A DNA stretch of 35,271 bases from positions 1-35,271 of the forward strand of contig CACZUZ010000025.1 of assembly GCA_902784465.1 (NCBI GenBank). The letters are read 5' to 3'. Both the position numbers and the translations under genes were made by a program. The notes under the pieces were generated by a model. The model was not told where the DNA came from, did no database searches, and saw nothing but the letters and a program-made list of their open reading frames with translations. The DNA comes from an uncultured Bacteroidota bacterium (lineage in GTDB: Bacteria > Bacteroidota > Bacteroidia > Bacteroidales > P3). Position 1 is the first letter of the stretch, and every line of letters begins with the position of its first letter. Positions 4,441-5,802 of the stretch are shown piece after piece.

Positions 4441-5802
4441 ATGCAAGACTCACCATACCGCCCGCACAACCCAGGTCATGATTATCACGGCAAAGGCACC
4501 TACCTAATAACGCTGGTTGTTAGCGGCCGTCGACCTCTGCTATCGAGCTTCTCGACCGATATCGGTCGAGAAGACCTCATCGTCCAGCAGCCCGCCCCTT
4601 TTGGCCAGCCTTTCCCCCTCGCCCAGCCCTCCCAGCCCTCCCCTTTTGGCCAGCCTTTCCCCCTCGCCCAGCCCTCCCATCCCGCCCCCCTCGCCTCCCT
4701 TGCCCATCCCGCCTCCCTCGCCCAGATGCAGTCCGCAAGGACTGCTGCCACCTCGCCACTGACAGGACAACAGCTGCTGCATCTCTCTCCCATGGGCGAA
4801 TTTGTGAAGCAGGCATGGGAGGATATTCCCGCCCTACAGCTGAAACATGGCAACAAAGTAGCCGTCCATGCTTGTATTTGCATGCCAGACCATTTCCACG
4901 GTGTCATCGAAATAATAGAACCCATGCAATGGAGCCTTGGAGACATACTCCAAGCCTTCAAGGCTCATTGCACCCATTATTGGCAGCAGCAAATGGGGCT
5001 GGCGCCCTCATCAGATCGACCGATCTCGGTCGATCTGGACCGGCCAGACATCCCCGACTGGCTACGCCAAAAAGCTCTCGTCCACCGGTCGGAGGGCTCT
5101 TTCATTCGCAACCTCTCTCCCAAGCAAAGACAGCAATACTACGCCCTTTCGGGATATGAACGGCTCCATCTCTTCGACGACAACTACGACGACACCATCT
5201 GTCTCGACAGTCGTCACCGCGAAGCCATGATACGGTACGTGGTCGACAATCCCCGACGTGCCATTCTCCGCCGCCTTTTGCCCGATTTCATGCGCCGCTG
5301 TCACCACCTCAAGGTTGGCAATCGCAGCTACGGTGCCTTCGGCAACATATTCCTTCTCCGTTGGGCCAACAAGATTCAAGTGCAATGCCACCGCAAGCAC
5401 CCTTTGACCAGGGAACCGTATGAGACAACAGCCGAATACTCCCGTCTGTGGAGCCAATGGATCAAAGCCATCCTCGGCGGACAGACAGTGATTGTCACGC
5501 CCGGCATCTCTCGCGGAGAGCAACGGATAAAGAACGAGTGCCTCGCCAAGCACTATCCGCTAATCCACATCCAGAAAGAACCCATCGGCCACTACTGGAA
5601 ACCCGAGCACAGCCGCTTCGAATCCTGCTCCAACGGCAGCCTACTCATACTAGCCCCCTGGCATCTTGACCAAATGGACGGCGTCTCTGGCGTACCCTCC
5701 GCCACCGACTACAGCCGTTTCCACAACCTCAACAACTTAGCAGCCGAGTTGTGCGCCTTCACAGGCCAAGCCACAATAGTCCGTCATGACGACAGAACAT
5801 GA
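4441..5802 (+). CDS. HUH-type (Y1) transposase-like protein of the RAYT kind, with an extra C-terminal domain
   Basis: A single-strand DNA endonuclease related to IS200/IS605 transposases and REP-associated tyrosine transposases. The N-terminus (GHDYHGKGTYLITLVV) is the usual opening beta-strand. The HUH motif is MPDHFHGVIEI, with His151 and His153. The candidate nucleophile is Tyr266 in RYVVDNPRRAIL, the YxxxNP context common in RAYTs. Residues 50-95 are a Pro/Gln/Ala-rich insertion coded by a 45-nt repeat, and two palindromes lie within the coding sequence. Residues from about 310 to 453 form an additional domain with GNIFLLRW, VIVTPGISRGEQRIKNE and GSLLILAPW. Its alternating beta/alpha look suggests a Rossmann-like fold, possibly DprA/LOG-like; this is inference. 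No flanking terminal repeats are seen, so it is probably a single-copy domesticated gene rather than an insertion sequence. Confidence 0.85.
   Translation: MQDSPYRPHNPGHDYHGKGTYLITLVVSGRRPLLSSFSTDIGREDLIVQQPAPFGQPFPLAQPSQPSPFGQPFPLAQPSHPAPLASLAHPASLAQMQSARTAATSPLTGQQLLHLSPMGEFVKQAWEDIPALQLKHGNKVAVHACICMPDHFHGVIEIIEPMQWSLGDILQAFKAHCTHYWQQQMGLAPSSDRPISVDLDRPDIPDWLRQKALVHRSEGSFIRNLSPKQRQQYYALSGYERLHLFDDNYDDTICLDSRHREAMIRYVVDNPRRAILRRLLPDFMRRCHHLKVGNRSYGAFGNIFLLRWANKIQVQCHRKHPLTREPYETTAEYSRLWSQWIKAILGGQTVIVTPGISRGEQRIKNECLAKHYPLIHIQKEPIGHYWKPEHSRFESCSNGSLLILAPWHLDQMDGVSGVPSATDYSRFHNLNNLAAELCAFTGQATIVRHDDRT
4548..4573. repeat. REP-like palindrome 1 inside the RAYT gene
   Basis: A 26-nt palindrome: 12-nt arm CTTCTCGACCGA, spacer TA, arm TCGGTCGAGAAG. 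It shares the core TCGACCGA-NN-TCGGTCGA (arms 7-8 nt) with a second element in the same gene at 5012, but is read in a different frame (F-S-T-D-I-G-R-E). Confidence 0.85.
4595..4679 (+). repeat. In-frame 45-nt direct repeat coding a Pro-rich linker
   Basis: Two identical 40-nt copies at 4595-4634 and 4640-4679, starting CCCCTTTTGGCCAGCC, are offset by 45 nt. They encode 15-residue units containing PFGQPFPLAQPS. A more degenerate Pro/Ala/Leu stretch continues to about 4725. Confidence 0.9.
5012..5037. repeat. REP-like palindrome 2 inside the RAYT gene
   Basis: The arms CAGATCGACCGA and TCGGTCGATCTG are separated by TC. The architecture (12 + 2 + 12) and central core match palindrome 1, but the coding frame differs (S-D-R-P-I-S-V-D). 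Confidence 0.85.

Follow-up and report, generated by a model that had tools for sequence, protein, structure and literature searches.

Paired palindromes kept within the coding sequence of a RAYT-like HUH gene of uncultured Bacteroidales

A RAYT-like gene with two internal palindromes

Two palindromes lie within the coding sequence of a RAYT-like gene from an uncultured Bacteroidales bacterium. The gene occupies positions 4441..5802 of the plus strand in the analysed stretch of 35,271 nucleotides (hereafter the window). An earlier sequence-only reading had reported palindromes at 4548 and 5012 that share a core and have identical 12+2+12 architecture. Both palindromes and the common core, TCGACCGA-NN-TCGGTCGA, were confirmed, but the architecture holds for only one of them: site 2, CAGATCGACCGATCTCGGTCGATCTG (5012..5037, plus strand), is of the form 12+2+12, whereas site 1, CTTCTCGACCGATATCGGTCGAGAAG (4548..4573, plus strand), is a perfect 13+0+13 palindrome, complementary through its centre. 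As the same reading had claimed, the two are translated in different frames. Site 1 is read F-S-T-D-I-G-R-E, with S-T-D-I-G-R for the core, and site 2 is read S-D-R-P-I-S-V-D-L, with R-P-I-S-V-D for the core. They are the longest two of the five palindromes found in the 35-kb window with arms of at least 9 and a loop of at most 8. When up to three mismatches were allowed, the core matched twice in the window, whereas 100 shuffles averaged 0.19 matches and two of them also reached two. In the bacterium's own genome (2.53 Mb, 84% complete) the 18-mer core occurs at two places, both within the RAYT-like gene, and its reversed control at none; with up to three mismatches it was found at seven places as against five for the control.

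The proposed assignment of the gene to the RAYT type was supported by the predicted fold and by a weak, partial profile match. The 453-residue protein resembles RAYT/TnpA_REP HUH Y1 enzymes and has an extra C-terminal part. NCBIfam profile NF047646 (REP_Tyr_transpos) gave 34.8 bits against a curated cut-off of 80, with a partial match covering 41-88 of 146, and Pfam gave no match for the window protein. Weak matches to Pfam Y1_Tnp were obtained for 41 of 64 aligned proteins (best E 0.0013). This alignment represents 64 of 81 genes; broken or partial genes and that of locus L078 were left out, and four of the 81 genes were dropped for being shorter than 300 residues. Invariant in all 64 proteins are P149, D150, H151, F152 and H153 of the HUH motif P-D-H-F-H (residues 149-153; 4885..4899, plus strand) and Y266, D269, N270, R272 and R273 of the Tyr motif Y-V-V-D-N-P-R-R (5236..5259, plus strand). 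Site 2 lies between the two motifs, and Tyr266 is the putative catalytic residue by likeness to Y1 enzymes.

An AlphaFold2 model built from the 64 aligned proteins had a mean pLDDT of 79.6. Foldseek matched it to the Y1 structures 4er8, 2xm3 and 2vju (probability 0.99-1.00; E 0.009-0.07); 4er8, a TnpA_REP with a REP hairpin, gave an E value of 0.009, and the IS608 and ISDra2 transposases were matched too. The sole match below 0.001 was to ShosA (8zva, E 0.0004), and further matches were to MilB (E 0.016) and DprA (3uqz, E 0.08). The Tyr motif is followed by 180 residues, and the model with its Foldseek matches suggests a DprA/ShosA/MilB-like alpha/beta part at 5431..5781 (plus strand), with approximate limits taken from secondary structure. 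The protein would thus consist of an HUH Y1 domain and a DprA-like C-terminal domain, the assignment of the hits to these parts being our inference.

The surroundings of the gene vary by locus, and no neighbour cluster is present in more than 11 of the 81 loci. In seven of the 81 (L030, L061, L088, L029, L041, L034 and L049) an hsdM gene lies at most about 90 nt upstream of the RAYT-like gene start (gene at about 2501, but at 1374 in L049 and at 1972 in L088), and in six of these an hsdS match follows downstream (Pfam names checked for L030 and L041). In the hsdM genomes the RAYT-like gene is therefore located in type I restriction-modification loci. Profiles of anti-phage systems gave no match for three proteins.

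Pairing at the nucleic-acid level

The relatives used for comparison were the best 80 of 105, giving 81 loci together with the window. All 80 are titled uncultured Bacteroidales, many of them from rumen or other gut samples. Palindromes recur in them at the same two places of the gene, with centres mostly 104-119 and 355-445 nt past the match start. The site 2 centre of the window is found further along, at 583, because of a repeat expansion between the sites. This expansion (4588..4731, plus strand; repeat family D1) adjoins site 1 on its 3' side and is Pro-rich in translation; the model has a pLDDT below 50 at residues 48-105. In locus L078 another large repeat insert is situated near the place of the Pro-rich expansion.

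According to the sequence-only reading, the likeness of the two sites resides in the DNA and not in the protein. At site 2 the protein is itself conserved, as NRPISVDC, yet the codons exceed what the protein demands. This was assessed by a codon null in which each protein was kept and synonymous codons were redrawn from the gene's usage. Of the 79 loci with a match, the 47 that have a Phe codon at site 1 entered its tests, one of them being skipped in the codon null for a stop; the other 32 lack that codon. For site 2, nine of 80 rows with gaps were left out. Pairing reached 352 of 506 at site 1 (46 rows) against 256.6±8.1 under the null, and 670 of 781 at site 2 (71 rows) against 369.5±10.4; the rows are related, so that these deviations are not independent. 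Fully paired sites numbered 11 against 0.11 expected at site 1 and 21 against 0.00 at site 2, and for 26 single rows of site 2 the observed pairing was reached in none of 2000 draws. Protein constraint as the only cause of the palindromes is ruled out by this null.

The arms also covary. The covariation score was 0.359 versus 0.240 at site 1 and 0.218 versus 0.106 at site 2, in each case with 0 of 500 shuffles as high, and the best slid registers gave 0.159 and 0.105, respectively. The scores were calculated from 32 distinct rows for site 1 and 54 for site 2; relatedness is taken into account by the slides but not by the shuffles. The site 1 alignment held 38 of the 47 rows, nine length-shifted or motif-lacking ones having been left out by eye, a choice that favours pairing; the codon null had kept eight of these nine and skipped the other for its stop. 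The site 2 alignment held 69 of the 71 rows, without L052 and L062, whose site is letter-identical to that of L054 (identical rows count once). At site 2 all five covariation measures stand out, none being equalled by more than 3 of 500 shuffles. Two cruder ones fall within the shuffles at site 1: the count of pairs changed on both sides was matched in 76 of 500 shuffles and that of further pair types in 150. Tree-based counts took well-paired rows only and were not used as evidence. Since the pairing exceeds the codon null and covaries, it is kept at the nucleic-acid level, which bears out the claim of a likeness in DNA.

Concerted evolution of the two sites found no support. They have the same position-7 pair in 13 of 25 loci where 10.8 are expected (P 0.12), and the same centre in 7 where 4.8 are expected (P 0.16).

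A shared apex and the distribution of the hairpins

Hairpins with the apex CCG-N4-CGG, counted in the 81 loci with five of six outer pairs required, number 73 in the gene, 15 up to 300 bp away from it and three in about 330 kb of further flank. Thus 88 of the 91 belong to the RAYT-like gene or its closest 300 bp, and three control apices of the same bases were seen 1, 0 and 0 times in the gene. Of the palindromes with arms of at least 8, those with this apex make up 42 of 60 inside the gene, 4 of 18 in the upstream 300 bp and 6 of 23 in the downstream 300 bp. At least one apex hairpin lies in the gene or within 300 bp in 59 of the 81 loci, and at least two in 25 loci; by this strict criterion 22 loci have none. 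The window gene has no flanking apex hairpin within 300 bp, the 15 such hairpins being spread across the 81 loci. On the coding strand the fourth loop base is T in 83 of the 88 hairpins and the second in 73, a preference that coding constraint may cause inside the gene. In 84 of the 88, neither strand has a GT[AG]G within 6 nt of the hairpin foot.

A search for further copies throughout the genome, as the sequence-only reading had proposed, yielded no third full 18-mer, but six shorter copies that have the apex and a stem. The genome shows no enrichment of the bare apex ACCGNNNTCGGT (27 and 24 places on the two strands versus 42 and 42 for the reversed control). Of the 37 places outside the gene, the context of 21 was read, and these include the six apex-sharing hairpins, which form a tandem of three on contig C6, a tandem of two on C13 and a single copy on C14 and in every case lie between the surrounding main ORFs. 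To this extent the suggestion of mobile palindromes finds support, in that apex-sharing hairpins between genes exist. By the refuting condition of the sequence-only reading, which combined a lack of further copies with conservation of both palindromes as protein, the outcome is mixed, site 2 being conserved in protein but with more pairing in its codons than the protein requires. The many extragenic copies per genome that are a trait of REPs were not seen in this genome, which has two copies in the gene and these six elsewhere among the places read.

A count of the core GACCGANNTCGGTC in 59 same-genus genomes gave 39 places versus 5 for the reversed pattern, and in 40 genomes from other genera of the order 0 versus 7. 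A close orthologue (E <1e-150) is present in 16 of the 59, and 16 of the 26 core places of these 16 genomes are inside it, where 0.013 would be expected, in agreement with the proposed tie between palindromes and gene. The 43 genomes without a close orthologue have 13 core places. Outside the gene, 19 places in relatives were inspected: six in one Mur ligase gene, four hairpins with arms of 12-22 (L154, L162, L169 and L170) and nine whose arms measure 7 or 8, including one that a contig end cuts. In L169 a tandem of four hairpins, GGCGACCGAAC..GGTCGCC, separated by spacers such as TTAGGGCAAAAAA, extends over 1036-1160, and no ORF of 100 aa includes it; the hairpins of L154, L162 and L170 overlap putative open frames of 109-219 aa. 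In the Mur ligase gene, GGTGTGACCGA-NN-TCGGTCACACC is present in 6 of 31 aligned loci (L157, L172, L174, L175, L186, and L173 with one mismatch), and its core and frame are those of site 1.

Covarying arms could also arise from a mutational process, in which template switching between the arms of a quasi-palindrome perfects the pairs and mimics compensatory change without any selection for binding. Template switching reportedly homogenises the arms of inverted repeats, site 1 adjoins unstable repeats, and the Mur ligase gene with the palindrome has the length of some relatives without it. Such a process leaves unexplained, however, that the apex CCG-N4-CGG is shared by two sites in different frames, by the gene flanks and by copies elsewhere, and that none of the 82 palindromes with arms of at least 8 in the further flanks has it. 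We consider it unlikely that the palindromes are kept mainly in this way.

The same genus has a second, distant RAYT-like family, which was compared at 21 loci, including a second copy in the bacterium's own genome; 16 of these have an ORF with both motifs. A palindrome with arms of at least 8 lies between HUH and Tyr motifs in 14 of the 16, as counted without a shuffle control, and none of these palindromes has the apex of the window family. The second RAYT-like gene of the genome itself (C26:28563-29235; L009, L151) has TGTTGCGTTGsCAACGCAACA both within the gene and just past its stop, and the core of this palindrome occurs at seven places in the genome versus 0 for the control, five of them on C13 and C30. 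Because 14 of 16 genes of the distant family carry other palindromes, internal palindromes appear to be common among RAYT-like genes, with a different palindrome in each family. A Mur ligase linker in L177 contains in frame GTGGCAACAGTGTTGCAAC, one mismatch from GTTGCAACAGTGTTGCAAC of the second RAYT-like family (L118 and L124).

Explanations and relation to known systems

Mobile REP-like palindromes could have been inserted in frame, tolerated in the manner of Rickettsia palindromic elements and later decayed, as the sequence-only reading had envisaged. Site 1 gives a mixed answer. Twenty-five loci pair there at 9 or more of the 11 positions, and the length between anchors is 204 nt in four of them, 207-210 in seven and 225-405 in 14; 21 of the 25 are thus longer than the 204 nt found in 28 of the 32 loci without the Phe codon. 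Insertion would agree with this, with the second palindrome close to site 1 in L015 and L018, and with L053 and L078, where an insert ends in the palindrome. Yet the gain is 21-201 nt in 14 of the 25 loci, the window included, and 0-6 nt in the other 11, too small for a 24-nt element. The site 1 palindrome can therefore occur without added length, but added length often accompanies it. Site 2 is at one place in most relatives; 71 of 80 rows align there with no gap, and most encode a conserved motif of the NRPIS type. Neither site requires in-frame insertion, which as an account of both is rather unlikely, though for site 1 it stays conceivable.

Both sites are within the ORF and would be transcribed, so that they might act as mRNA hairpins in translation pausing, in RNase processing or in binding of the protein to its own message. 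On the coding strand of site 1, G·T mismatches (11) outnumber A·C ones (3), a weak bias that would suit such a role. Site 2 lacks this strand bias (20 versus 22), and hairpins with the same apex occur outside the ORF as well, on either side of it, which makes a role in mRNA improbable. The two-fold symmetry, the lack of a clear strand bias and the presence of the core in the Mur ligase gene and elsewhere, in part in genomes that lack a close orthologue of the RAYT-like gene, would suit duplex operators of a homodimeric regulator other than the RAYT-like protein. This is equally improbable, since in the loci read the hairpins are nearly confined to the RAYT-like gene although its neighbours differ among loci, and their stem letters vary while pairing persists, unlike those of a fixed-letter operator.

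On balance we lean towards the explanation that sites 1 and 2 are cognate hairpins of the encoded HUH Y1 protein, kept at two set places of the coding sequence by selection on the DNA. Several of the results count against it: the missing GT[AG]G, which is the known guide of REPs, the lack of apex enrichment in the own genome, the two site 1 covariation measures within the shuffles, the absent or weak mismatch bias, the 22 loci without an apex hairpin, the 13 core places in genomes without a close orthologue and the core in the Mur ligase gene. That the protein binds or cleaves them is what we infer from its fold, from the pairing of one gene family with one palindrome family and from the behaviour of TnpA_REP enzymes as described in excerpts of PMC8266576. 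The protein would bind the hairpins when its own gene is single-stranded, in replication or transcription bubbles. Its main role there would be feedback on its own expression or activity, the use that we regard as likeliest given that the sites stay within the gene and have spread little elsewhere; occasional copying of the hairpins to other sites could give rise to the small intergenic arrays. Self-targeting regulation, the other possibility raised from the sequence, is plausible.

A more specific proposal is made tentatively, as a possibility that we hold with some doubt. An HUH enzyme fused to a DprA-like domain would carry its own recognition hairpins as internal coding elements, and the two sites flanking the HUH-coding region would turn the gene into a substrate for the enzyme it encodes, serving feedback or programmed single-strand processing of the locus, with synonymous codons selected for that. 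To our knowledge, the role of RAYTs for their hosts is unsettled. The sites point to the likely substrate of the enzyme without reliance on high-copy repeats.

REPs inside tnpA_REP genes are a known phenomenon. The excerpts of Quentin et al. 2018 (PMC6006769) considered here describe REPs inserted in frame within tnpA_REP genes of subclass 2.4, generally between HUH and Tyr motifs. As far as these excerpts go, the window gene resembles that subclass in having a REP-like palindrome inside a TnpA_REP gene with the frame kept, in the position of site 2 between HUH and Tyr, in a variable region and in Bacteroidetes being among the hosts. It differs from the subclass described there in having two sites, with site 1 upstream of the HUH motif, and in its motifs: subclass 2.4 has NH[IFV]H and YIxNNP and no C-terminal extension, whereas the window protein has DHFH, YVVDNPRR and a long C-terminal part. 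Compared with the same description, the window family also lacks the GT[AG]G foot in nearly all of its hairpins, and many loci keep the sites without a length gain of the size of an insertion.

With the REPtrons of E. coli, Stenotrophomonas and Marinomonas, as presented in the excerpts of PMC8266576, the family shares an HUH Y1 enzyme with hairpins that are probably cognate, the pairing being deduced here. According to the same excerpts, loop positions can decide recognition in REPtrons. Compared with what they describe, the window family has no GTAG guide, few copies in its own genome and hairpins mostly in the gene. So far as excerpted from PMC3733652, intragenic GTAG/CGTC REPs and Rickettsia palindromic elements are likewise palindromes translated in frame within proteins, but they are distributed across unrelated genes, whereas most of those described here belong to a single gene family and occupy set positions in it.

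The excerpts of PMC6006769 contain no statement on two fixed sites or on maintenance at the codon level, and no paper in the open-licence collection searched mentions TnpAREP together with DprA. New here are the two conserved coding sites, their maintenance at the codon level, the shared apex, the absence of a GTAG foot and the DprA-like part suggested by the model. The window family offers a transposase-like gene whose codon choice is shaped by nucleic-acid structure across many species, and its two defined, conserved in-gene sites make self-recognition directly testable.
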